From contig NZ_JAUNSF010000020.1 in the NCBI RefSeq assembly GCF_030539355.1, positions 1 to 33,689 of the forward strand: a DNA stretch of 33,689 nucleotides, given 5' to 3'. Under the pieces are notes generated by a model. That model was given only the letters and a program-made list of their open reading frames with translations. It did not search any database and was not told the origin of the DNA. The position numbers and the translations under genes were made by a program. The stretch comes from Sutterella sp. (GTDB lineage: Bacteria; Pseudomonadota; Gammaproteobacteria; Burkholderiales; Burkholderiaceae_F). This document shows, piece after piece, positions 12,774 through 24,547 of the stretch. Position 1 is the stretch's first letter. Each line of letters starts with the position of its first letter.

Positions 12774-14711
12774 TCAGGCGGGATCGGCCGCCGCGGCGCT
12801 CTTCGCCTCGATCTCCTCGGAGAGCTCGAGCCAGCGCATCTCGAGCTCCTCGACCTGGGGGCCGAGCTCGCCGTGTTCCTTGAGCATCGCAGCGACCTTC
12901 TCCTGGTCGGCGTTCGTGTAGAAGTCCGGGTCCGCGAGCTCCGCGTCAAGGGCCTTGAGGCGCTCGGAGAGTTTGTTCATCTCACGATCGACCTTCGCGA
13001 GCTCGGCTTTGAGCGGCTTCGTGATCTGCGCGATGCGGGCGCGCTCCTGCGCGGCGAGGCGCCTTGCCTCGGACTTGTTGGCCGACGGGGCCGTGGGCTT
13101 CGCGGCGAGTCGCTCGGCCTTCGCTTCCGCGGCGGTCGTGCGGCGGTGCTCGAGCACGAGCTGGGCGTAGTCGTCGAGGTCGCCGTCAAAGGGCTCGCGC
13201 CGGCCGTCGTGCACGAGCCAGAGCTCGTCGGTGACGGCGCGCAGCAGATGGCGGTCATGCGAGACGAGAAGCACCGCGCCCTCGTAGGTCGAGAGCGCCA
13301 TCGTGAGCGCCTCGCGCGTCTCCATGTCGAGGTGATTGGTCGGTTCGTCGAGCACGAGGAGGTTGGGCTTCTTCCACGCGATGAGGGCGAGCGCGAGGCG
13401 GGCCTTCTCGCCGCCCGACATAGGACGCACGGGGCTCGTGGCGAAGTCGCCGGAGAAGCGGTAGGTGCCGAGGAAGTCGCGGAGCTCCTGCTCGCGCGTG
13501 TCGGGGGCGAGGCGCCTCAGGTGCTCGAGCGGCGTGTCATCGAGCCGCAGCTGGTCGAGCTGGTGCTGCGCGAAGTAGCCGATCTCGAGGCCCTGGCCGC
13601 GGCGCAGTTCGCCCCCGAGGGGCGGGATCTCTCCGACGATCGTCTTCACAAGCGTCGACTTGCCCGCGCCGTTCACGCCGAGGATGCCGATGCGCTCGCC
13701 CGAGCGGACGCTGAAACCCACCTGCGAGAGGATCCTCAGGTCGCCGTAGCCGCAGGAGAGGCCCTCGGCGTCGACGAGGTGCTCGGGGAGCCGCACGGGC
13801 TTCAGAAAGTTGAAGCGCCACTCGCGCTTCGCGCGCACGGGCTCCACGGACTCGAGGCGCTCGAGCATCTTGATGCGGCTCTGCGCCTGGCGGGCCTTCG
13901 TCGCCTTGTAGCGGAAGCGCTCGATGTAGCTCGTCAGGTGCGCGGCCTGCGTCTCGTAGGCGCGGCGCGCGGCGTCCTGCTGGCGGAGTTTCTCGACGCG
14001 CTCGCGCTCGAAGGCCGAGTAGTTGCCCGCGTAGCGGCAGATCGTGCCGTCCTCGACGGACCAGACGTTCTGGATCGCGCGGTCAAGGAACTCGCGGTCG
14101 TGCGAGATGATGACGACGGTCGATTCGACGCGCTTGAGCCAGTTCTCGAGCCAGATGAGCGAGTCGATGTCGAGGTGGTTCGTGGGTTCGTCGAGGAGGA
14201 GCAGATCGGCGGGGCGCATGAGCGCCCGCGCGAGCGCGATGCGGTTGCGCCAGCCGCCCGAGAAGTCGCGCACCGGGCGGTCGCCGTCCGACTCCTGGAA
14301 GCCGAGGCCGGCGAGGATGGTCTTGGCCTGCGCGACGACGGCGCCTTCGTTCACGTCGGCGAGCTCGCTGTGCGCCGCGGCGAGCGCCATCTCGTCGCCC
14401 GAGGCCTCGGCCGCGGCGAGGCTCTCGCGGGCCCTGATGAGGGGCGCGTGGCCCGAGAGCACGTAGTCGATGCAGTTGACGTCCTCGACCTGGAAGCTCT
14501 GCGCGACGTGCGCGATGCGCTCCTGCGGGGGCGTCTCGATCTCGCCCTCCTCGGCGCTGATCTCGCCGAGGATCGCCGCGAAGAGCGTGGACTTGCCGCA
14601 GCCGTTCGGGCCGACGAGGCCGATGCGCTCGCCCGGGCCCGCGATCAGCGTCGCGTGCGAGTAGAGCGTGCGGGTTCCGCGCATGAGCGAGAGGTTGAGA
14701 AGTCTGAGCAT
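12774..14711 (-). CDS. ABC-F family ATPase (YheS-like)
   Basis: This 645-residue soluble protein has two ABC domains and no membrane segments, the ABC-F layout of ribosome-associated translation factors. Domain 1 has Walker A GPNGCGKST (34-42), signature FSGGW (150-154) and Walker B LLLLDEPTNHLD (170-181). A charged linker follows at about 230-300. Domain 2 has GVNGAGKST (345-353), signature MSGGEKARLAL (431-441) and LLVLDEPTNHLD (451-462). A C-terminal coiled coil rich in Glu/Lys/Leu covers about 560-645. Length and order match E. coli YheS best; Uup is the main alternative. The ATG at 14711 starts the conserved MLRLLNLSL although no Shine-Dalgarno is obvious; the frame runs much further upstream but overlaps prmB. 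Confidence 0.9.
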   Translation of the reverse strand: MLRLLNLSLMRGTRTLYSHATLIAGPGERIGLVGPNGCGKSTLFAAILGEISAEEGEIETPPQERIAHVAQSFQVEDVNCIDYVLSGHAPLIRARESLAAAEASGDEMALAAAHSELADVNEGAVVAQAKTILAGLGFQESDGDRPVRDFSGGWRNRIALARALMRPADLLLLDEPTNHLDIDSLIWLENWLKRVESTVVIISHDREFLDRAIQNVWSVEDGTICRYAGNYSAFERERVEKLRQQDAARRAYETQAAHLTSYIERFRYKATKARQAQSRIKMLERLESVEPVRAKREWRFNFLKPVRLPEHLVDAEGLSCGYGDLRILSQVGFSVRSGERIGILGVNGAGKSTLVKTIVGEIPPLGGELRRGQGLEIGYFAQHQLDQLRLDDTPLEHLRRLAPDTREQELRDFLGTYRFSGDFATSPVRPMSGGEKARLALALIAWKKPNLLVLDEPTNHLDMETREALTMALSTYEGAVLLVSHDRHLLRAVTDELWLVHDGRREPFDGDLDDYAQLVLEHRRTTAAEAKAERLAAKPTAPSANKSEARRLAAQERARIAQITKPLKAELAKVDREMNKLSERLKALDAELADPDFYTNADQEKVAAMLKEHGELGPQVEELEMRWLELSEEIEAKSAAAADPA

Positions 14712-14733
14712 GACGGTCGGGAGAGAAGACGAT

Positions 14734-14758
14734 GGCCGCGTCCTGCAGGGGCGCGGCC
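14734..14758 (-). other. Palindromic hairpin between prmB and the ABC-F gene
   Basis: The arms GGCCGCG (14734-14740) and CGCGGCC (14752-14758) enclose a second CC/GG pairing around TGCA. On the minus strand it is followed by a pyrimidine-rich but not T-only stretch, so it may be a weak terminator or attenuator after prmB. Confidence 0.35.
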
Positions 14759-14788
14759 GGGAATCAGAGACGTTTGGGTACGGGCGGA

Positions 14789-15718
14789 TCAGGCGCCGAA
14801 GTATTCGACGAGGTCCTCGCGCGTGACGAGGAAGACCTGGTCGTCGCCGCCCGAGACGGAGAGCCACGTGATGGCGAGACCCGGATAGCGGGCCTCCATC
14901 GCCTCGAGCCCGTCGCCCACCTCGACGATGAGGATGCCGCCCTCCTCGAGGTGCTCGGCGCCGCCCTTGAGGATGCGGTCGACGACGTCCATGCCGTCGT
15001 CGCCCGCGGCGAGCGCGAGCGAGGGCTCCTGGCGGTACTCGGCGGGCAGCGCCTCCATCGAGCTCGTCCTCACGTAGGGCGGGTTGGAGATGATCACCGA
15101 GAAGCGGCGGCCCTGAAGGTTCTCGTAGAGGTCGCCCTGGACGAGCTCGAGCGTCTCCTCCATGCCGTAGTCGCGGCGGTTGATCTTCGCCACCTCGAGC
15201 GCGTCCTTCGAGATGTCCGAGCCCGTCACCTGCGCGTTCGGGAAGACGCCCTGGGCGAGGATCGCAAGGCACCCCGAGCCCGTGCAGAGGTCAAGGACGC
15301 TCTCGACGGCCTCCGGGTCCTCGACCCACGGGGCGAGGTCGTCCTCGAGGAGCTCGGCGATGTAGGAGCGCGGGATGAGCGCGCGCTCGTCGATGTAGAA
15401 GCAGTGGCCGGTGAGCCAGGCCTCCTTGAGGAGGTACGCAGTCGGCGTGCGGTCATGCACGCGGCGGTCGACCAAGTGCACGAGGCGCACGAGCTCGTTG
15501 TGCGTGAGCGCGGCGTCAAGGAACGTGTCAAAGCGCTCGAAGGGGAGCTTGAGCGCGCGGCAGATGAGGAACGAGGCGTCCTCGACCGCGCTGGGCGAGC
15601 CGTGCCCGAAGGTGAGTCCCGCGGTCTCCATCTCGGTCGCGGCCCAGCGCCAGACGTCGCGGATGGTCCGGAGATTGTGGATGGGATCGTCAAGAAGAGG
15701 AGCTGCTTCGTACAACAT
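14789..15718 (-). CDS. prmB: 50S ribosomal protein L3 glutamine N5-methyltransferase
   Basis: PrmB methylates a glutamine of ribosomal protein L3 using S-adenosylmethionine in the cytoplasm. The 309-residue length fits PrmB. The helical N-terminal part is followed by AYLLKEAWLTGHCFYIDERALIPRS, where PrmB/PrmC enzymes dock substrate. Then come the SAM motif VLDLCTGSGCLAI (141-153), GSDIS, and the catalytic NPPY at 212-215 that flips the glutamine amide. The region after NPPY (EYRQEPSLALAAGDDGMD) is more PrmB-like than PrmC-like. A Shine-Dalgarno AAGGA lies five to six bases before the ATG. The ABC-F gene follows 77 bases downstream on the same strand. Confidence 0.92.
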   Translation of the reverse strand: MLYEAAPLLDDPIHNLRTIRDVWRWAATEMETAGLTFGHGSPSAVEDASFLICRALKLPFERFDTFLDAALTHNELVRLVHLVDRRVHDRTPTAYLLKEAWLTGHCFYIDERALIPRSYIAELLEDDLAPWVEDPEAVESVLDLCTGSGCLAILAQGVFPNAQVTGSDISKDALEVAKINRRDYGMEETLELVQGDLYENLQGRRFSVIISNPPYVRTSSMEALPAEYRQEPSLALAAGDDGMDVVDRILKGGAEHLEEGGILIVEVGDGLEAMEARYPGLAITWLSVSGGDDQVFLVTREDLVEYFGA

Positions 15719-15790
15719 GGCCGTCCTTGCGGGAAATGCTCGAAATGCGGGGGATGCCGGGCCCTGAAACGGACCCGGGCGGAGGAATCG

Positions 15791-15805
15791 GCCATTATAA
15801 ATGGC
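15791..15805 (-). promoter_or_regulatory. prmB: Candidate prmB promoter inside a palindrome
   Basis: The minus strand carries a perfect TATAAT (15799-15794). It lies within the palindrome GCCATT-ATA-AATGGC (15791-15805), about 75 bases before prmB and 19 bases after the LysR stop codon. The -35 position is poor, which suggests dependence on an activator or a weak promoter. Confidence 0.4.
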
Positions 15806-15823
15806 GCCCTGCGGGTGGATTTT

Positions 15824-16750
15824 TCAGAGCAGGCGCTCGAAGTCCGAGAGCTCCCCGAGCATGCGGAAGAGCTGCAGCAGAACGGGAGAGTTGCTGCTCG
15901 AGAGCCTCATCGCCCGGATCTCGAGAAGGGAGTGCTCGAGCGCGAAGAGCTCGGTGTCGGGACCGAGCTTGGGCGCGGCGACCTCGGGGAGGATCGCGAT
16001 GCCGAGGCCCGCGTCGACGAAGCTCGCGATCAGGCCCACCGTGGGAAGCTTCATCGTCCGGCGCGGCACGAAGCTGAGCGCATTCTCGATCGAGACGGGC
16101 GATTCGTTCACGGTCTCGAAGAAGATGAAGGTCTGCTCCTTGAGCGACTTCGGATCGGGCCTGCCGTTCGCGAGCGTTTTAACGGTGCCCTTTCGCGCGA
16201 CGAGCGCGGCGCGGAAGCTCGTGAGCGGCACAGACACGGTGCCCTCGGGGAAGCTGATGCCGAAGGTGATGCCGAACATGCAGTCGATCTTCCCGTCGGC
16301 GAGGCGCTTCGCGAGCGCCGGGGGCGAGTCCTCCTCGGCGGTGATCTCGAGCTCGGGGAAGCGCCTTCTCGCCTCATGGAGAATCTTGGCGAGCAGCCCC
16401 GTCGCGATCGTGGCCGAGCAGGCGCCGATGCGGAGCGTCCCCGCGGGGCCGTCGAAGATGTCGGCGCTGTTGCGCACCGCGCGCTCCATGAGCGAGAGGA
16501 TGCGTTCGGCGTCGGCGAGAAACACCTCGCCCGCGGCGGTGAGCGAGAGCGTGCGGTTCGAGCGGTTGATGAGCGGCCCGCCCACCTCCTCCTCGAGCGC
16601 GCGGATGCGCGCCGTGAGCGCGGGCTGCGAGATGCCGAGCGCGGCGGCGGCACGTCGGAAGTGCATGAACTTCGCGAGCGTGACGAAGGCCTCAAGGTTC
16701 CTGGTGTCAAGCATGCTTCTGCGGGGTGATGTGGGCTGGAGTGCTTTCAT
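15824..16750 (-). CDS. LysR-family transcriptional regulator
   Basis: This is a DNA-binding regulator with a co-inducer domain. The N-terminal winged helix-turn-helix is typical: RNLEAFVTLAKFMHFRRAAAALGISQPALTARIRALEEEVGGPLI, shown here only to mark its extent over about 45 residues. A linker helix and a two-lobed LysR substrate domain follow, with LRIGACSATIATGLLAK and an AGLGIAILPEVAA block near the end. ATG 16750 gives 308 residues and has GAGG seven bases upstream. ATG 16714 gives the more usual MLDTRN start (296 residues) with a weaker ribosome site. The gene lies on the same strand directly behind the terminator of the hydrolase/reductase pair, which makes that pair its likely target. 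Confidence 0.9.
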   Translation of the reverse strand: MKALQPTSPRRSMLDTRNLEAFVTLAKFMHFRRAAAALGISQPALTARIRALEEEVGGPLINRSNRTLSLTAAGEVFLADAERILSLMERAVRNSADIFDGPAGTLRIGACSATIATGLLAKILHEARRRFPELEITAEEDSPPALAKRLADGKIDCMFGITFGISFPEGTVSVPLTSFRAALVARKGTVKTLANGRPDPKSLKEQTFIFFETVNESPVSIENALSFVPRRTMKLPTVGLIASFVDAGLGIAILPEVAAPKLGPDTELFALEHSLLEIRAMRLSSSNSPVLLQLFRMLGELSDFERLL

Positions 16751-16767
16751 CTTAAGGCCTCGTCTCG

Positions 16768-16810
16768 AAAAAGCGGACGGGCGGCCCCTCTGCCCGGAGA
16801 CCGCCCGTCC
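16768..16810 (-). terminator. Strong terminator after the hydrolase gene, just before LysR
   Basis: Perfect 10-bp arms GGACGGGCGG (16775-16784) and CCGCCCGTCC (16801-16810) are followed on the minus strand by GC and T5 (16772-16768). It ends 18 bases before the LysR ATG at 16750, so LysR transcription from the upstream pair would need readthrough. Confidence 0.85.
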
Positions 16811-16835
16811 GACCCTCACCACAAGGGATCTTTCA

Positions 16836-18725
16836 TCACTTCGCCGGGATCACCGGAACGAGGAGGTAGCTCTCGTACTTCCCGCCCGTGTGGATCTCGT
16901 GGCGCCCCTTGTTCATCGTGGCGGGCGAGGTGACGACTTCCTTCGGGTCGGCCACTTCCTTCGAGTTGCCGCCGATCGTCATCATCTCGACCTTCTCGCC
17001 CGGCGTGAAGGTGTAGCCCACCTTCGGGACGGAGATCCTCGCCTCGCCAAAGGGGATCGCAGCCTCGCCCGGACGGTAGGCACCGACCGTGAGCGCGAGC
17101 TGCTCACCCTTCTCGAATCTGAGGCCGATCGGCCAGATCTCGATGTCGACCGGCACGATCTCGCCGGGCTTCACCTTCTCGAACTTCTCGAATTTGTGGA
17201 CGGGCTCGCTCTCGGTGCTCCTCGCCTCGTCAAGCGCACGGAGCGAGACGCGCAGCTGCCCCGTGGCGGAGATCGGCATGCCGAGCGGGTCGCCGAGGGG
17301 CTTCCCTTCGGCGGAAAGCTTCTCGACCTTGACCGCGAGGTCCATGTCGTCGTGGTCCGGAGCCGAGACCCAGGCGCGCAGCTTCATGTAGCCCGTGATC
17401 TCGGTGGGCTCATCCATGCGGAAGCGGTAGACGACCGACGGGTTCTCGGCGCCCGAGTCGTAGCTGTCGACGGCCTCGACCGCGGGGAGCGCCTCGGTGA
17501 GAGCGTGGTCGGCGGCCGAGAGATAGAGCCGGCGGTACTCCGTGCGCGCGAGCGGGAACTCGTTCTCGACGCGGTTCACGATGTCCTCGCCGCCCGGGTT
17601 GAGAACCGAGAGGCGCACGCGCGGCGTCTGCTCCCAGCCGTTCTCGATGCCCTTGAGATAGTGGTCAAAGAACTTCCTCAGGTCCTCCACATTGGCCGGG
17701 GTGTAGTAGTCGTGCCATTCGTTCGTGTTGTGCACGCGCAGCCACTTCTCGGAGGAAGAGATATTGCGGAAGCCCGCGAAGGTGCCGTGCGTGTGCACGG
17801 GGTTCGTCCAGCTCGCGACGACGTAGGCGGGCACGGTGATGTTCTCAAGCCGCGCAGCCTTGTCCTTCCAGTAGTCGGTGAGGAGCGGCTCCTCGACGAT
17901 CATGCGGGGCTGGTCCTCGAGCACGCCCGAGTGCGAGGCGAAGGTCTCGGCGATCATCTCGGGGAACTCCGGTGTGGGGATGCCGCCGCGGGTGCCCGAC
18001 TCGCGGTAGTGGTTCGAGAACCCTTCCCAGGGCGCGATGGCGGCGAGGTGCTCCGGGCGCTCGGCGGCGATGAACCACTGCGAGACCGTGAGCCAGGAGT
18101 TGCCCGTCATGCCGACCTTGCCCGTGCACCAGTTCTGCTTGGCGATCCACTCGATCACGTCGCGTCCGTCGAGCGCGTCCTTGTGGCCCCAGTAGAGGAG
18201 GTCGCCCTCGCTCATGTAGGCGCCGCGCTTGTCGGGATTGATGACGGCGTAGCCGTGCGCGACCCAGTAGGCCGGGTCCGGCCCCTCGAACTTCTCGAGG
18301 CCCGAGGTCGCGGAGAGCGGCACGCCGGAGCGGCCCGGCACGTCGTCGAGCATCTGGCCGCCCACTTCCTTGCCGTAGGGACTCCAGGCGAGGAGCGCCG
18401 GGTACTTGCCGTCTCCGACGGGGCGGAAGACGTCGGTGTAGATCGTCACGCCGTCGCGCAGCTTCACCGGCACGTCGCGCTCGAGCAGGATGTCACAGGG
18501 GAGCGGCATCGCCCCCTCGCGGCGGATCGTGCCCTTCTTGAGAATCAGCGTCTCCTGTTTGAAGCCGGGATAGCGGGCGCGGTCGGCGGTGACGGGAAGC
18601 GCCTTGCGGGCGGGAATGGTGAGTTCCACGCCGTCCGCGGTTGTGAGGGAGACCGTGGCCGCGGCGGCGAGCGCGGGGGAGAGCATGGCCGCGCCGAGGG
18701 CGGCGGCGAGAAGCTTCGTGTTCAT
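16836..18725 (-). CDS. Secreted CocE/NonD-type (X-Pro peptidase S15 family) hydrolase
   Basis: The 629-residue protein has a Sec signal peptide (MNTKLLAAALGAAMLSPALA, cleavage after about residue 22) and is probably periplasmic. It combines an S15/CocE alpha/beta-hydrolase domain with a C-terminal jelly-roll domain (from about 380) characteristic of X-Pro dipeptidyl peptidases and cocaine esterase. The nucleophile is Ser210 in VGMTGNSWL; upstream are LRDGVTIYTDVFRP and WVAHGYAVINPDKRG. The region where cocaine esterase has its catalytic Asp reads ASWTNPVHTHGTF, with Asn308 at that place. A candidate catalytic His is in VHNTNEWHDYY (332 or 338). Substrate (ester or amide) unknown. Its ATG overlaps the stop of the flavoprotein gene as ATGA, so the two are co-translated. 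Confidence 0.88.
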   Translation of the reverse strand: MNTKLLAAALGAAMLSPALAAAATVSLTTADGVELTIPARKALPVTADRARYPGFKQETLILKKGTIRREGAMPLPCDILLERDVPVKLRDGVTIYTDVFRPVGDGKYPALLAWSPYGKEVGGQMLDDVPGRSGVPLSATSGLEKFEGPDPAYWVAHGYAVINPDKRGAYMSEGDLLYWGHKDALDGRDVIEWIAKQNWCTGKVGMTGNSWLTVSQWFIAAERPEHLAAIAPWEGFSNHYRESGTRGGIPTPEFPEMIAETFASHSGVLEDQPRMIVEEPLLTDYWKDKAARLENITVPAYVVASWTNPVHTHGTFAGFRNISSSEKWLRVHNTNEWHDYYTPANVEDLRKFFDHYLKGIENGWEQTPRVRLSVLNPGGEDIVNRVENEFPLARTEYRRLYLSAADHALTEALPAVEAVDSYDSGAENPSVVYRFRMDEPTEITGYMKLRAWVSAPDHDDMDLAVKVEKLSAEGKPLGDPLGMPISATGQLRVSLRALDEARSTESEPVHKFEKFEKVKPGEIVPVDIEIWPIGLRFEKGEQLALTVGAYRPGEAAIPFGEARISVPKVGYTFTPGEKVEMMTIGGNSKEVADPKEVVTSPATMNKGRHEIHTGGKYESYLLVPVIPAK

Positions 18726-20707
18726 CTGGTATTTCCTTGTGGTGAAAGCGGTGGACCGGACGCGGGCGCCTCGTCAGGTTGGCAGAGCGAGGCGCCCGGG
18801 GCCGGGGAGGAAAGGGGGCAGTCGGCGTTCTTCACCTTTGCCGCGGCATCCGCGCCGGCGATGCGGCCGCTGTTGTAGGCGAAGCCGAGTGCGAGGCCCT
18901 GGTAGGGCGGATAGGACGGGGCGGAGTAGAACCCGTAGGCGTTGTTGCCGACGGCGTAGAGTCCCTTGACGACCTCGCCGCTGCCGTTCAAAGCCTGCAT
19001 GTTCTCGTTGACGCGCACGCCGCCGAGCGTGGAGAGGCTCACGACACGGGCGCGGAAGGCGTAGAAGGGGCCCTTCTCGACGGTGAACTTCAGGAACTCC
19101 GCGGGTTTGCCGTAGGGGTCGGAACCCGTCCTCACGGCTTCGTTGTAGTCGGCGACCTCGCGCTCGAAGCCCGCCTCGAAACCGGTGAGCTTCGCGAGCT
19201 CCTCGAGCGTGTCGGCCTTGAAGCCGACGCCCTGGCGGACGGCCTCCTCGGCGAGCGCACGGAAGTCACCCTTTCCCTCGGGGTTGAGCGGCCCCGCGCC
19301 CGAGACTTCGAAGGGGAGGGCGTCCGCGGTGTAGGTGTCGAGCGTCGCCGCGTCACAGACGACGAAGTACTTGCCGCCGGCGGAGTATGCAGCGTTCGCC
19401 CAGAGGACGGTGTCGTAGATGAGTTCCTCGTTGGCGAAGCGCTTCCCCGACGTGTCGACCCACATGAGCGGGGTCTTCAGCACGCGCACGAGGAGGTTGG
19501 AGTCCTGCATCTGCGCGCCGCCCTTCGAGGCCGAGGAGGCGAGGCCGTCGAACTCCGCGCCGTGGATAAGTATGTCGCCTTCGCCCAATTTCTGCGCGCC
19601 GGCCTTCCAGGCCATCTCCAGACCCTCGCCGTTGTTCGACCAGGCGATGCGGTTCGTGACGTTCTCCGTCTCGAGCGCCCGGGAGAGGTGCTTCGCGTCG
19701 CCGCCGAAGCCGCCCGAGGCGATGATGACCGCCTTCGCGTGCACGGTGAGCTTCGCGCCGCCCGACTTCTCCGCAATGACGGCCGAGACGCTGCCGTCCG
19801 GGGCGGTCTCGATGTCATACGCACGGGCGCCGGTGATGAGCTCGCCGCCCATTTCCCCGAGCGCGGCGTACATGTTCTCGAAGGCCTTCGGGCTGTCGAC
19901 GTACTGGTGGTAGATCCTCCAGCGCAGCGGATAGGGGTTCTGGCCCTGCTGCAGGTTTTTGTCATCGATCCTGAGGTCCACGCCGTAGCCCTTCAGCCAG
20001 TCGACGGTCGAGGCGGAGAGGTCGATCACCTTCCGCGTGATGCGCGCGTTGCTCAGATAATGGTTGTAGTCCATCAGCTCCCGGTAGAGGTTGTCCTTCG
20101 TGAGGACCTTCATGAGCTCCGGGTCGCTGCCGTACTTTTCCTTCATGAGCGAGCTCTCGACCGCGAAGAGCCCCATGGCGATCTTCGAGGCACCGCCTGC
20201 GGCCGGGGCCTTCTCGAGCACGGTTACCCTGACGCCCGCCTCGGCGGCGGCGAGCGCGGCGGCTGTGCCGGAGGCACCCGCGCCGATCACGACCACGTCG
20301 GTGGTGATCTCCTCGGCGGGGAGCGCCGCCTTCTCGACCTTCACGTCGTAGGCCTTCGGGTCGGCGCCCGCCTTCGCGAGCGCGGCGACGACGGCCGAGC
20401 GGATGGCCTCCGAGGAGACGGTGGCGCCCGAGACGCCGTCGACGGCCGTGCTCTGGTGCTCGAGGATCGCGGGGACCATCTGCTTCGCGGCGGCGCCGCC
20501 GAGGTCGGGCGTCTCGCCCGAGACGTCCACCGAGAGATCGGTGATGCGGCCGGAGGCGTCGACGGTCACGGATGCGCGGACCGGGGAGAGCTTGCCGGCG
20601 GCCTCGGCCTCGTACGTGCCGGCGGTGACGGCGGCCGGGGAGACGATCGGCGTGAAGAGCGCCGCGGTGAGCGCGGCGGCGGTGAGTCGGTGCAGATGGA
20701 TGTGCAT
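18722..20707 (-). CDS. Exported FMN-binding/FAD flavoprotein reductase (flavocytochrome c-like)
   Basis: The 661-residue protein has a Sec-type signal peptide (about residues 1-28). An FMN_bind domain (about 29-112) has the flavinylation motif DGVSGATVSS (90-99), where ApbE attaches FMN through a phosphoester bond. An FAD_binding_2 domain follows, with the dinucleotide fold VVVIGAGASGTAAAL (138-152), GGASK (171-175), IIASGGFGGD (328-337) and GLYAVGNN (582-589). There is no CxxCH haem motif, so electrons must come from a partner. The family reduces C=C bonds of periplasmic acceptors such as fumarate or urocanate, but the fumarate-binding residues are missing here. A tail of about 35 residues (Cys630, Cys642) follows the fold. 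GGAG lies nine bases before the ATG. First gene of the pair with the hydrolase. Confidence 0.92.
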   Translation of the reverse strand: MHIHLHRLTAAALTAALFTPIVSPAAVTAGTYEAEAAGKLSPVRASVTVDASGRITDLSVDVSGETPDLGGAAAKQMVPAILEHQSTAVDGVSGATVSSEAIRSAVVAALAKAGADPKAYDVKVEKAALPAEEITTDVVVIGAGASGTAAALAAAEAGVRVTVLEKAPAAGGASKIAMGLFAVESSLMKEKYGSDPELMKVLTKDNLYRELMDYNHYLSNARITRKVIDLSASTVDWLKGYGVDLRIDDKNLQQGQNPYPLRWRIYHQYVDSPKAFENMYAALGEMGGELITGARAYDIETAPDGSVSAVIAEKSGGAKLTVHAKAVIIASGGFGGDAKHLSRALETENVTNRIAWSNNGEGLEMAWKAGAQKLGEGDILIHGAEFDGLASSASKGGAQMQDSNLLVRVLKTPLMWVDTSGKRFANEELIYDTVLWANAAYSAGGKYFVVCDAATLDTYTADALPFEVSGAGPLNPEGKGDFRALAEEAVRQGVGFKADTLEELAKLTGFEAGFEREVADYNEAVRTGSDPYGKPAEFLKFTVEKGPFYAFRARVVSLSTLGGVRVNENMQALNGSGEVVKGLYAVGNNAYGFYSAPSYPPYQGLALGFAYNSGRIAGADAAAKVKNADCPLSSPAPGASLCQPDEAPASGPPLSPQGNTR

Positions 20708-20992
20708 GGTGGACGTTCTCCGTTTGTTCCTTGCAGTTCTTTTCAGGGGCGATCTTTCATGCGGATGTGGGTGCCGGGGCAGGCGCCTGAAGCCTCGGAG
20801 AACCGGATCGCCTGAGAGTGAAGATAAGACACGTGGAAAGCGTCGGACTCGATTGCACGATAAATAAAACTGATCATGAGGGCATCCAGGGGCCTTTCCG
20901 GAGTCACCGTCACCCCGTGCGGAAATCTGCGCGAAAATGTCACCCGTCCGTCCGCTACCCCGGCTTATCCATTCCCATCAGGAGCACCTCCC
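20708..20992. promoter_or_regulatory. Divergent control region between the reductase pair and smc
   Basis: This 285-base gap must hold the promoters of the minus-strand reductase/hydrolase pair and of plus-strand smc. An A/T-rich patch (GATAAATAAAACTGATC, about 20860-20876) is the most promoter-like part. Neither a clean -10/-35 pair nor a convincing LysR T-N11-A box can be assigned. No gene is supported: the open frame over 20876-20992 is only the upstream extension of smc. Confidence 0.35.
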
Positions 20993-23900
20993 TTGCGACT
21001 TCGTCAGATCAAAATCGCCGGCTTCAAGAGCTTCGCCGATCCGACCGTGATCGATATCCGGGATCCGCTCATCGGAATCGTGGGCCCGAACGGCTGCGGC
21101 AAGTCGAACATCATTGACGCCGTCCGATGGGTGCTCGGCGAAGGCCGCGTGAGCGAACTGCGCGGCGGCGCGATGTCCGAGCTCATCTTCACGGGGTCGG
21201 CGAGGCGCGCGCCGCTCGGTCGCGCGAGCGTGGAGCTCCTTCTCGACAACAGCGACCACGCCGTCAAGGGCCCCTGGGGCCAGTACGCCGAGCTCTCGAT
21301 CCGCCGCGTGGTCACGACCGAGGGCGTCTCGGCCTACTACATCAATCACCAGCAGGTGCGAAAACGCGACGTGCAGGAGATCTTCCTCGGCACGGGCCTG
21401 GGCTCGCGGAGCTACGCCATCGTCTCCCAGGGCATGATCGAGCGCTTCACCTCCGCCAGGCCCGAGGAGATCCGCGTCTACCTCGAGGAGGCCGCGGGCG
21501 TGTCGCTCTACAAGGAGCGCCGCCGCGAGACCGAGTCACACCTGAGGCAGACGCAGGAGAACCTCGAGCGCGCGGCGGACCTGCAGAGCGTGCGCGCCGA
21601 GGAGATCGAGAAGCTTCGTGCGGAGGCGGCGACCGCCGCCCGCTGGCAGGAGCTTGACCGGAAGAAGACCGAGAGCGAGGCGCTCTGGTACTTCCTGATG
21701 AGCGAGAACGCCCGGCGCGAGGCCGACCAGGCCCGCGAGGCGATCACCCGCATCGAGAACGACATCGCGATGAAGCGCGCCGCCGTCGAGGAGTGCGAGG
21801 CCGCCCAGGAGGGGCTCGAGAACGAGGTGAAGAAGGCCGACGCCGAGCACGAGCGCATCTCCGGGGAATTCCGCGAGGCCGAGAAGGAACTCGCCCGTCT
21901 CGAGGGCGAGATGAGCCGCATCGTCGAGCGCCGGCGCACCGCCGAGCGCGACCGCACGCAGGCGGCCGAGACTATCGCCGCCAAGGAGAAGCTCATCAGT
22001 GAGATGACGCTCCGGCGCGAGGAGAGCTCGGAAAAGATCGCCGAGCTTGAGGCGCTCCTCGAGGAATTCGAGGAGATGAACGAGACGCGCGCCGAGGCGC
22101 TCGACGCGGCCGAGGAGGCCGAGCGCACGACCCGGGCCGCGGCCGAGACCGCGGGCGGGGCGCTCGCGCGCGCCCGCACCGCGCAGCAGGTCGAGGAAGT
22201 GAAGCTCTCGCGCGAGCGCGAGCGCGTGGGCGAGCTCGACCGCAGGCTCTCGCGCATCACCGAGGACGAGCGCGGCAGCGAAAAGCCCGACCCGGAGAAG
22301 GTCGAGGCGCTCGCCGAGGCGCTTGTCGAAGCGGGCGAGGCCGAGGAGGAGGCCGCCGCGAAGCGCGAGGAGGCGCTCGAGCGCGCCGAGACCGCCCGCG
22401 AGGCGGCCGCGCAGGCGAACGAAAAATACTTTGCCCTCCTTTCCGAACAGAAGTCTCTCTCGGCGAAGCTCTCGACCCTCGAGGAGGTGCAGCGCTCGGC
22501 CGAGAAGTCGGACGCGCTCTCGAAGTGGCTCGAGGAGACCGGCATCGCCGGCCTTCCCGAACTGATTGACTCGATCGAGGTGCCCGACGAACTCCTCACG
22601 GCGCTCGAGGCGGTGCTTGAGCACCGCATGCAGGCGCTGCTCCTGCGCGACCTGCGGGCCGCGGGTGATCTCGCCCGCAGCCGCCCGCCCGCGCGGCTCT
22701 CCTTTGCCGCCCCCGAGCCCGAGGGCGCCGCCGCCCCGGCGCTCGTCTGGGAGATCGAAGGAAGGCCCGTGATCCGCCTCTCCGAGCACGTCACGACGAA
22801 GCACCCGGCCGCGCGCGCCGCGATCGACGCCTGGGCCTCGTGCGCCGGACTCGCCCCGGACCTCGCCACGGCGCTCCGCGCCCGCACGACGCTCCCCGAG
22901 GGACACTGCTTCGTGACGCCGCAGGGCGACGTCGTGACCCGCTCCTCGCTCACCTTCTGGGCCGCGGAGGATCCGCGCCTCGCGCTCCTTTCCCGCGCGC
23001 AGGAGATCCGCGAGCTCTCGGCGCGCGTCGAGGCCTTGGACATCGAGGTCGGCCAGGCCGACGACCGCAGAAATGCGGCCGCCCGCGAGGAAACGGATTC
23101 CCGGCGCGCCGCGGAGCTCGCCCAGACCGCGGTCGCCGAGGCCGCCCGCCGCACCGCGGCCGCGAAGCTCGCCGAGCGCGAGGCGAGGCGCACGCTCGAG
23201 GAGGCGCTGCGCCGCGAGGCTGATCTCAAGCGCTCCCGCGAGGAGCTCGAGCGCGAGCGCGCCGAGGTCTCGGCGAGAGTCGACGAGATGCTCGAGACGA
23301 TGGACGGCCTTGCCGAGGCGCTCGAATCCGCGGAGACCGCCGCGGGCGAGGCCGCGGCCGCCTACGCCAGGGCGCAGGACCGGCTTGCCAATGAGCGCAG
23401 GGAGCAGACCGAGCTCATTCACCGCACGGCGATGAAGCGCCTCGAGATCCAGCAGGCCCGCGAGGGTGCGCAGCTCGACGAGCGCCGCATCGAGGAGGCG
23501 AAGGCCGACGTCGAGCGCGAGAAGACGCGACTTGCCGAGGCCGAGAAGCTTCTCGCCGAGGAGGACCAGGGCACGGTCGAGTCGGGCGCGAAGGCGCTCC
23601 TCGAGAAGAGCGCCGGTCTCGAGCGCGCCGCCGCGGACGCCCAGGGGCGTCTCGCCGAGACGCGCAGGAAGGCCGACGAGAACCGGAAGCTCGCGAAGAC
23701 CCTGACCGAGGGGATCCTGCCGCTCACGGAACAGCTCGGCACGCTGCGCGTCACCGCCGAGCAGAAGTCGGGGCTTCTCAGTCAGTTCAACGACCGCATG
23801 GAGGAGCTCGGTGCCGACTGGCAGACGCTCTCCGTCATCGCGCAGGAGCGCAAGGTCAAGGCCCCGGCCGTGAAGAGCGAGGTCACGCGCCTCATGAATG

Positions 23901-24547
23901 AGATCGCCGCGCTCGGTCCCGTCAACCACGCCGCGCTCTCGCACCTCGAGGCCGCCGAGGAGGCGATGCGCCTCGCCGAGGCCCAGATCAACGACCTGAA
24001 GCAGGCCGTCGAGACCCTCGAGGCGGCGATCCGCAAGATCGACTCGGAGACGCGCAGCCGCATGCGCGAGACCTTCGAGAAGGTGAACACGAACTTCGCC
24101 GAGACCTTCCGCGGTCTCTTCGGCGGCGGCGTCGCGTCGCTCACGCTCGTGGGCGACGAGATCCTCACCGCGGGCGTCGAGGTGCGCGCGCAGCCCCCGG
24201 GCAAGCGCAACCAGTCGCTCACGCTCCTCTCGGGCGGCGAGAAGGCGCTCACCGCGACGGCGCTCATCTTCGCGATGTTCCGCCTCAACCCGGCGCCCTT
24301 CTGTCTGCTCGACGAGGTGGACGCGCCGCTTGACGAGGCGAACCAGGGCCGTCTCGCGCGCCTCTGCCTCGGCATGAGCGAGGCGACGCAGTTCATCATC
24401 ATCACGCACCACCGCGTGACGATGGAGTACGCCTCGTCGCTCATCGGCGTGACGATGAAGGAGCCGGGCGTGAGCCGCGTGGTGAGCGTCGACATCGAGG
24501 AGGCCGTGCGCCAGTCCTCGGAGACGGTTGCGACAGCGGGCGCCTGA
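20993..24547 (+). CDS. smc: Chromosome partition protein SMC
   Basis: SMC is the long coiled-coil ATPase that, with ScpA and ScpB, compacts and segregates the chromosome. The 1184-residue protein opens LRLRQIKIAGFKSFADPT with Walker A VGPNGCGKSN, then a first coiled coil very rich in Glu, Ala and Arg. A hinge at about 500-650 contains GIAGLPELIDSIEVPDELL. A second coiled coil follows, and the C-terminal head has LLSGGEKALTATALIF and Walker B FCLLDEVDAPLDEAN. The start is a TTG at 20993: AGGAG lies eight bases upstream and homology begins exactly there. The open frame reaches back to an ATG at 20876 but those residues look non-coding. The ZipA-like gene and ligA follow, a known betaproteobacterial order. 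scpAB is not in the window. Confidence 0.96.
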   Translation: MRLRQIKIAGFKSFADPTVIDIRDPLIGIVGPNGCGKSNIIDAVRWVLGEGRVSELRGGAMSELIFTGSARRAPLGRASVELLLDNSDHAVKGPWGQYAELSIRRVVTTEGVSAYYINHQQVRKRDVQEIFLGTGLGSRSYAIVSQGMIERFTSARPEEIRVYLEEAAGVSLYKERRRETESHLRQTQENLERAADLQSVRAEEIEKLRAEAATAARWQELDRKKTESEALWYFLMSENARREADQAREAITRIENDIAMKRAAVEECEAAQEGLENEVKKADAEHERISGEFREAEKELARLEGEMSRIVERRRTAERDRTQAAETIAAKEKLISEMTLRREESSEKIAELEALLEEFEEMNETRAEALDAAEEAERTTRAAAETAGGALARARTAQQVEEVKLSRERERVGELDRRLSRITEDERGSEKPDPEKVEALAEALVEAGEAEEEAAAKREEALERAETAREAAAQANEKYFALLSEQKSLSAKLSTLEEVQRSAEKSDALSKWLEETGIAGLPELIDSIEVPDELLTALEAVLEHRMQALLLRDLRAAGDLARSRPPARLSFAAPEPEGAAAPALVWEIEGRPVIRLSEHVTTKHPAARAAIDAWASCAGLAPDLATALRARTTLPEGHCFVTPQGDVVTRSSLTFWAAEDPRLALLSRAQEIRELSARVEALDIEVGQADDRRNAAAREETDSRRAAELAQTAVAEAARRTAAAKLAEREARRTLEEALRREADLKRSREELERERAEVSARVDEMLETMDGLAEALESAETAAGEAAAAYARAQDRLANERREQTELIHRTAMKRLEIQQAREGAQLDERRIEEAKADVEREKTRLAEAEKLLAEEDQGTVESGAKALLEKSAGLERAAADAQGRLAETRRKADENRKLAKTLTEGILPLTEQLGTLRVTAEQKSGLLSQFNDRMEELGADWQTLSVIAQERKVKAPAVKSEVTRLMNEIAALGPVNHAALSHLEAAEEAMRLAEAQINDLKQAVETLEAAIRKIDSETRSRMRETFEKVNTNFAETFRGLFGGGVASLTLVGDEILTAGVEVRAQPPGKRNQSLTLLSGGEKALTATALIFAMFRLNPAPFCLLDEVDAPLDEANQGRLARLCLGMSEATQFIIITHHRVTMEYASSLIGVTMKEPGVSRVVSVDIEEAVRQSSETVATAGA

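Follow-up and report, generated by a model that had tools for sequence, protein, structure and literature searches.

Several flavinylated fumarate reductase-like enzymes are described as extracytosolic and respiratory in one study, which also states that the substrates of many members of the flavin reductase superfamily are unknown (PMC8238504). In urocanate reductase, according to another report, Arg411, His520, and Arg560 touch the substrate carboxylate, contacts that are conserved across fumarate reductases; the counterpart of Arg411 in flavocytochrome c3 (Fcc3) is Arg401/402 (PMC7921117). A third source describes VprA, which reduces vinyl phenols, substrates with no carboxylate, and is controlled by VprR, a LysR-type regulator encoded beside it (PMC10295242). 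Here, we analysed a stretch of 33,689 nucleotides from Sutterella sp. (contig NZ_JAUNSF010000020.1; the whole stretch is referred to as the window), in which the gene of a flavin reductase overlaps that of a CocE/NonD family hydrolase close to a LysR gene. The window contains a real and tidy rebuilt reductase locus, a single instance, in which the hydrolase gene stands where related loci have a porin gene. The elements of the unit, by their positions in the window, are the following:

18722 to 20707, minus strand: flavin reductase with FMN_bind and FAD_binding_2 domains, 661 aa, probably exported (open reading frame (ORF) and domain calls)
16836 to 18725, minus strand: CocE/NonD (S15) family hydrolase, 629 aa (ORF and domain calls)
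18722 to 18725, minus strand: ATGA in which the reductase stop and the hydrolase start overlap (the plus strand reads TCAT)
18734 to 18738, minus strand: AAGGA, ribosome-site-like, 5' of the hydrolase start (sequence)
16774 to 16811, minus strand: terminator-like hairpin and T run 3' of the hydrolase (terminator scan)
15824 to 16714, minus strand: LysR-type regulator, ATG at 16714, longest ORF to 16822 (ORF and domain call)

A preliminary description of this DNA had given the positions of the two ORFs, their overlap, and their families, all of which were borne out, with both ORFs on the minus strand and the domains above curated cut-offs. The order of the unit is reductase, hydrolase, terminator-like site, and LysR. 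The hairpin at 16811-16774 lies directly 3' of the hydrolase stop and has 15 pairs, 12 of them G-C, followed by CTTTTTC. Since the scan returned 5 terminator-like sites in total compared to 2.9 (SD 1.9) in shuffles, the weight of this site comes from the length of its hairpin and not from the site count. With a strong terminator-like hairpin 3' of the hydrolase, the reductase and the hydrolase look like one transcript, and we consider a shared two-gene transcript highly probable. The preliminary description had assigned Sec-type signal peptides to both proteins; both N-termini do contain hydrophobic stretches that could serve as such signals, and export of both is likely from these N-termini. 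ATGA overlaps are common in bacterial operons, and in genome G057 (locus L016) the end of the orthologous reductase gene overlaps the start of a Porin_4 gene, likewise by ATGA, so that the overlap alone is not special to the reductase-hydrolase pair. Folding of the RNA around the overlap gave a z of -1.06, with 32 of 200 shuffles folding as well or better; because this barely beats shuffles, we claim no structure-based coupling.

Comparison with related loci placed the hydrolase in a slot otherwise held by a porin. At E 1e-110, 5 of 67 genomes of the family, the window's own among them, carry reductases that belong to the clade of the window protein (66-71% identity). At L014, L015, and L016, a LysR gene lies divergently upstream of the reductase and a Porin_4 gene downstream, and at L018 (contig C62 of the own genome, G000) reductase, porin, and LysR follow in this order on one strand. 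These are the four loci with readable downstream sequence; all four carry the Porin_4 gene behind the reductase, and only the window has a hydrolase there. Their LysR proteins are 40-48% identical to that of the window. A second copy in the own genome, L019, has a LysR gene upstream of the reductase, and its downstream side runs off the contig; the LysR proteins of L018 and L019 are only 74.5% identical, and these are therefore two separate loci. The reductase and its LysR are the older unit. In G057, a stop codon close to residue 205 interrupts the reductase frame (L016:6043-7959). Inspection by eye also showed an apparent frame break between the signal peptide and the mature part of the L018 porin (L018:4690-5880), possibly an assembly error.

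The reductase itself differs at the end that meets the hydrolase:

18725 to 18826, minus strand: C-terminal tail of the reductase, ~34 residues, missing from four relatives, which extends the frame to the hydrolase start (comparison)
18756 to 18805, minus strand: hairpin within the tail codons, no T run (folding)

Where the window reductase runs on for these ~34 residues, the four relatives have Lys and a stop. Long hairpins were seen 3' of the reductase at L014, L015, and L018, followed by T runs at L014 and L018 but not at L015 (folding, judged by eye), and a simple terminator scan of the reductase-porin spacers found no site at L014 or L015 and 1 short site at L018. These comparisons suggest that the old reductase stop, and the terminator if one existed, were lost on the way to the overlap.

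The positions of the reductase that bear on its acceptor are the following:

20378 to 20590, minus strand: FMN_bind domain, residues 40-110 (above curated cut-off)
18932 to 20299, minus strand: FAD_binding_2 domain, residues 137-592 (above curated cut-off)
20420 to 20440, minus strand: DGVSGAT (residues 90-96), where FMN is probably attached covalently (sequence motif)
19415 to 19417, minus strand: Tyr431, aligned to Fcc3 Arg402 (alignment)
19034 to 19036, minus strand: Leu558, aligned to Fcc3 His504 (alignment)
18914 to 18916, minus strand: Ser598, aligned to Fcc3 Arg544, within SYPPYQG (alignment)

The DGVSGAT motif is a likely site of covalent FMN attachment. The own genome has one ApbE gene (C183:11979-12818 of G000), so that both a predicted covalent FMN site and a genomic ApbE were found for the window reductase. 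A short match to the N-terminal part of the reductase lies directly before the ApbE gene. By alignment to Fcc3, the fumarate/urocanate-type Arg/His/Arg carboxylate set (Fcc3 Arg402/His504/Arg544, of which His504 and Arg544 are presumably the counterparts of His520 and Arg560 in urocanate reductase) is absent from the window reductase. The same alignment showed the Tyr/Leu/Ser triad in common among the window reductase, L018, and three relatives, with L017 and L019 outside it. As an internal control, we used 45 reductases of the own genome, which encodes at least 45 such related ORFs of at least 350 aa: 15 keep Arg/His/Arg, 23 carry different residues, and the remaining 7 are gapped at one or more of these three positions.

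These residues bear directly on the model given in the preliminary description, whereby an unsaturated acid or similar compound, set free from its conjugate by the hydrolase, would serve the reductase as terminal electron acceptor. The model is in keeping with the adjacency of the genes, the ATGA overlap, and the likely joint export, and one study reports hydroxycinnamic acid reduction by a flavin reductase in lactobacilli (PMC10295242). Because the carboxylate-binding residues align with Tyr, Leu, and Ser, however, one would not expect the acceptor to be an unsaturated acid released in this way; with the Arg/His/Arg set missing by alignment from the relatives too, the pair not recurring, and five Bacteroidota genomes having the hydrolase without such a reductase, we consider the model improbable. 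One paper reportedly names esterases as well as hcrB (PMC11126511).

The best-scoring NCBIfam model for the window reductase was the vinyl phenol reductase model NF053717 (267.7 bits, residues 136-622). Vinyl phenol reductase was rejected as its exact identity, the cut-off being 600 bits and seven places in the own genome scoring higher, so that the window reductase ranks eighth there; none of the seven shows the full Arg/His/Arg set (L041 being clipped by a contig end). The missing carboxylate clamp, together with the LysR control of VprA and its substrates without carboxylate, points to a neutral acceptor, which by the alignment is more likely to be an uncharged vinyl, enone, ester, or amide than a free acid.

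The hydrolase matched Peptidase_S15 (residues 91-251) and PepX_C (residues 362-547) above curated cut-offs, and the CocE_NonD model TIGR00976 with 233.2 bits compared to a cut-off of 66.3. Identity as an Xaa-Pro dipeptidyl-peptidase (PepX) was rejected, with scores of 42.8, 23.3, and 20.8 against equivalog/subfamily cut-offs of 642, 711, and 881. An AlphaFold model of the hydrolase built from six sequences had a mean pLDDT of 41.9 and was not used for a fold search. The active site positions are the following:

18096 to 18098, minus strand: Ser210 of GNSWL, nucleophile position (alignment)
17802 to 17804, minus strand: Asn308, catalytic Asp in the outgroup rows (alignment)
17730 to 17732, minus strand: His332, catalytic His position (alignment)

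Among 12 aligned hydrolases, the nucleophile Ser is present in all and the catalytic His in 11, the exception being G061. The usual catalytic Asp is Asn in all 10 clade rows (the window and 9 others, G101 and G061 included), and the two outgroup rows from G794 retain Asp. By alignment, the nearest solved relative, 3ib3/3iii, likewise has no Asp at this triad position. The hydrolase is likely catalytically active, as judged from its residues, with a third triad residue other than the usual Asp. The opposite view, that Asn308 marks a non-working protein with a binding role or in decay, draws on the 9 other clade rows and on G061, which lacks the His as well, but it sits poorly with the invariant Ser, with 3ib3/3iii, and with the 71-74% identity to five Bacteroidota relatives, and we rate it as very improbable. 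By eye, 4 of 6 Bacteroidales hydrolase N-termini have a Cys behind the hydrophobic stretch and look lipoprotein-like.

The hydrolase is single-copy in the own genome (E 0.001), and relatives occur in 2 of 67 family genomes, the own and G061 (E 1e-40); the G061 protein is 53% identical and lies on contig 32 of a draft assembly that has the reductase ortholog on contig 30. A pattern scan of the species-genome collection, which detects close relatives only, returned 11 stretches, 5 of them encoding hydrolase relatives, all in Bacteroidota and 71-75% identical. A sample of 393 genomes from the same order as G069 (P. coprocola) gave matches in 5 at E 1e-120, two of which overlap the pattern-scan set. 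Among 369 genomes drawn from the class to which the window belongs, 2 matched at E 1e-90, the own and G794. Outside the family this gave nine hydrolase loci (L003-L007 and L030-L033), 8 in Bacteroidales and one in G794. None of the nine had a match to any of the 45 own-genome reductases within ~6 kb (E 1e-10), and a search with the window reductase through the complete sequence of five Bacteroidota hydrolase genomes returned just two weak matches, the best at E 3.3e-5. Pattern scans of viral contigs, again able to detect close relatives only, found no relative of either protein, and a literature search of titles and abstract openings, with little subscription literature, found no published pairing of the two families.

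The pair was thus found in one genome only among the genomes sampled, and the recurrence across genera that the preliminary description had set as its own test did not appear, with the hydrolase in 2 of 67 family genomes and none of the nine outside loci paired. Nor does the hydrolase seem to need the reductase, given the five Bacteroidota genomes. Of the proposed joint unit, the analysis supports a pair of enzymes that are likely exported and likely encoded on a common transcript; recurrence, acid chemistry, and necessity were not supported.

The two genes that flank the cassette are the following:

14789 to 15718, minus strand: prmC-like methyltransferase (domain call)
20990 to 24547, plus strand: smc with SMC_N and SMC_hinge (domain calls)

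In 9 of 11 same-genus smc loci, prmC and smc are 179-878 bases apart (between alignment starts), compared to 5.3 kb in the window, and the cassette is therefore an insert. The other two, L074 (where the sequence ends ~620 bases past smc) and L077, have no prmC within the stretch. GC at third codon positions (GC3) is 0.926 for LysR, 0.930 for the hydrolase, and 0.915 for the reductase, against 0.935 for prmC, 0.929 for smc, and 0.923 for ligA, and the GC content of the hydrolase gene is 67% in the window compared to 47-60% in six Bacteroidales loci. With host-like codon use, and with a hydrolase GC unlike that of Bacteroidales, the cassette appears to be well established in this genome rather than the product of a chimeric assembly. 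A search for direct repeats in 15600-21000 showed no clean repeat at the two cassette ends among 20 of 46 families.

A hydrolase captured behind the reductase might also be a bystander, co-transcribed but acting on an unrelated substrate, with LysR sensing the reductase substrate only. The pair is a single instance, and the Bacteroidales hydrolases have neighbours of their own, an AraC-type gene being divergent to the hydrolase at L004, L006, L030, and L031 and a same-strand neighbour at L032 (5 of 8 loci); L005 has an AraC look-alike ORF with no Pfam match, and L003 and L007 have none. We also compared the best 44 S15 rows, the window and 43 other family loci, most with ~4 kb per side and some clipped by contig ends. 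A reductase-like match lay within about 4 kb in 4 of the 43 (E 1e-10), about the chance level, for which our own rough estimate is ~1 in 9 S15 loci in a genome with 45 reductases. These four matches, one of which spans no more than 53-55 residues, lie at a distance of 1.4-2.4 kb from S15, and the S15 genes there have open frames of 354-377 aa compared to 645 for the window. On the other side, the frame is intact, the codon use resembles that of the host, and the overlap is tight, which suggests that the hydrolase gene was kept, and it occupies exactly the porin slot. We regard the bystander account as a serious possibility that falls somewhat short of an even chance. The hydrolase relative encoded in G794 (L033:2504-7593) is more distant and retains the usual Asp; its gene is adjoined on the opposite strand by an AFOR_N/AFOR_C aldehyde ferredoxin oxidoreductase-type gene and by an FAD_binding_4 oxidase gene.

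Together, these results lead us to lean, with slight preference, towards a LysR-linked reductase locus in which the porin was replaced by a hydrolase, giving two enzymes in the same compartment and a neutral acceptor. In this course of events, the downstream porin gene would have given way to a hydrolase gene whose close relatives are mainly in Bacteroidales; reductase and hydrolase would be made from one transcript ending at the terminator and both would probably be exported. Electrons would pass via the FMN domain of the reductase to the C=C bond of a small outside compound, which, given a pocket with no carboxylate clamp, would more likely be neutral than a free acid. The hydrolase, sharing the compartment of the reductase, would cleave an ester or an amide, in the simplest case in the compound that the reductase acts on or in a precursor of it, and either ahead of the reduction or following it. 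A substrate common to both enzymes is plausible, at rather less than even chance. It is possible, though less likely than not, that a Bacteroidales-derived or -shared hydrolase in the porin slot yields an exported two-enzyme unit that combines ester or amide trimming with reduction of a non-acid C=C bond and so uses an acceptor that neither enzyme fully uses alone.

Several observations weigh against this favoured explanation. With a single instance of the pair, gene order is the one indication of shared function, and an inserted gene would land beside a reductase by chance in ~3% of cases (our own estimate, with 45 reductases and ~2,900 genes assumed). No sigma-70-type promoter was found in 14700-21200 by the same scan that was used for the terminators. 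At L017, there is no LysR match 5' of the reductase in a locus that runs off its contig. The triad reading comes from a sequence alignment in which 7 of 45 own rows are gapped in the triad columns, the hydrolase has Asn for the catalytic Asp throughout its clade, and in a tree of 12 hydrolases the window is one branch of an open fork, leaving the direction of transfer unsettled.

Other reductases of the own genome provide a context for the pair. Of 75 ORFs flanking them, 1 is a carboxylesterase. At L057:4027-7339 (G000:C91, ~13.4-16.7 kb), a COesterase gene of 535 aa, whose product by eye has an RR-type start, is separated by 115 bases from a divergent reductase that keeps the Arg/His/Arg carboxylate set; the esterase has matches in 8 of 67 family genomes (E 1e-60), and at 3 of these loci (own, G052, and G055) a reductase lies no more than 1.5 kb away. 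This esterase-reductase pair fits the acid-release idea of the preliminary description better than the window pair does. At L037:4230-7558, two tandem 499-aa reductases on one strand have identical residues at the three pocket positions.

The window matters in three respects. The hydrolase, as a probably co-transcribed partner, is a clue to the acceptor of the reductase, the missing carboxylate clamp narrows the acceptor search to non-acid compounds, and the locus illustrates how such a unit may be rebuilt, with the porin out, the hydrolase in, and the reductase frame extended to the new gene.

Compared to the known systems, the window reductase shares with FccA, UrdA, and their kin the FAD_binding_2 and FMN_bind domains and the likely ApbE flavin site, but by alignment it lacks their Arg/His/Arg carboxylate set. 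With VprA of Lactiplantibacillus plantarum it shares the LysR neighbour, and the family model of VprA is its best NCBIfam match, although it scores below the cut-off of that model, the comparison being made via the model and not the VprA protein sequence. The hydrolase matches the CocE/NonD hydrolase 3ib3/3iii at E 1.4e-102 over residues 78-547, and differs from it by its hydrophobic N-terminus and by having, where the Asp would be, an Asn next to a gap of one residue. We take 3ib3/3iii to be a Staphylococcus aureus protein, its table label being just CocE/NonD family hydrolase; a literature search for this entry turned up no paper about it within the best 8 of 506 matches. The LysR/reductase/Porin_4 loci of the family have the same LysR and reductase clade as the window, which differs from them by having a hydrolase for the porin and by its LysR gene lying downstream, compared to the divergent LysR genes of L014, L015, and L016.

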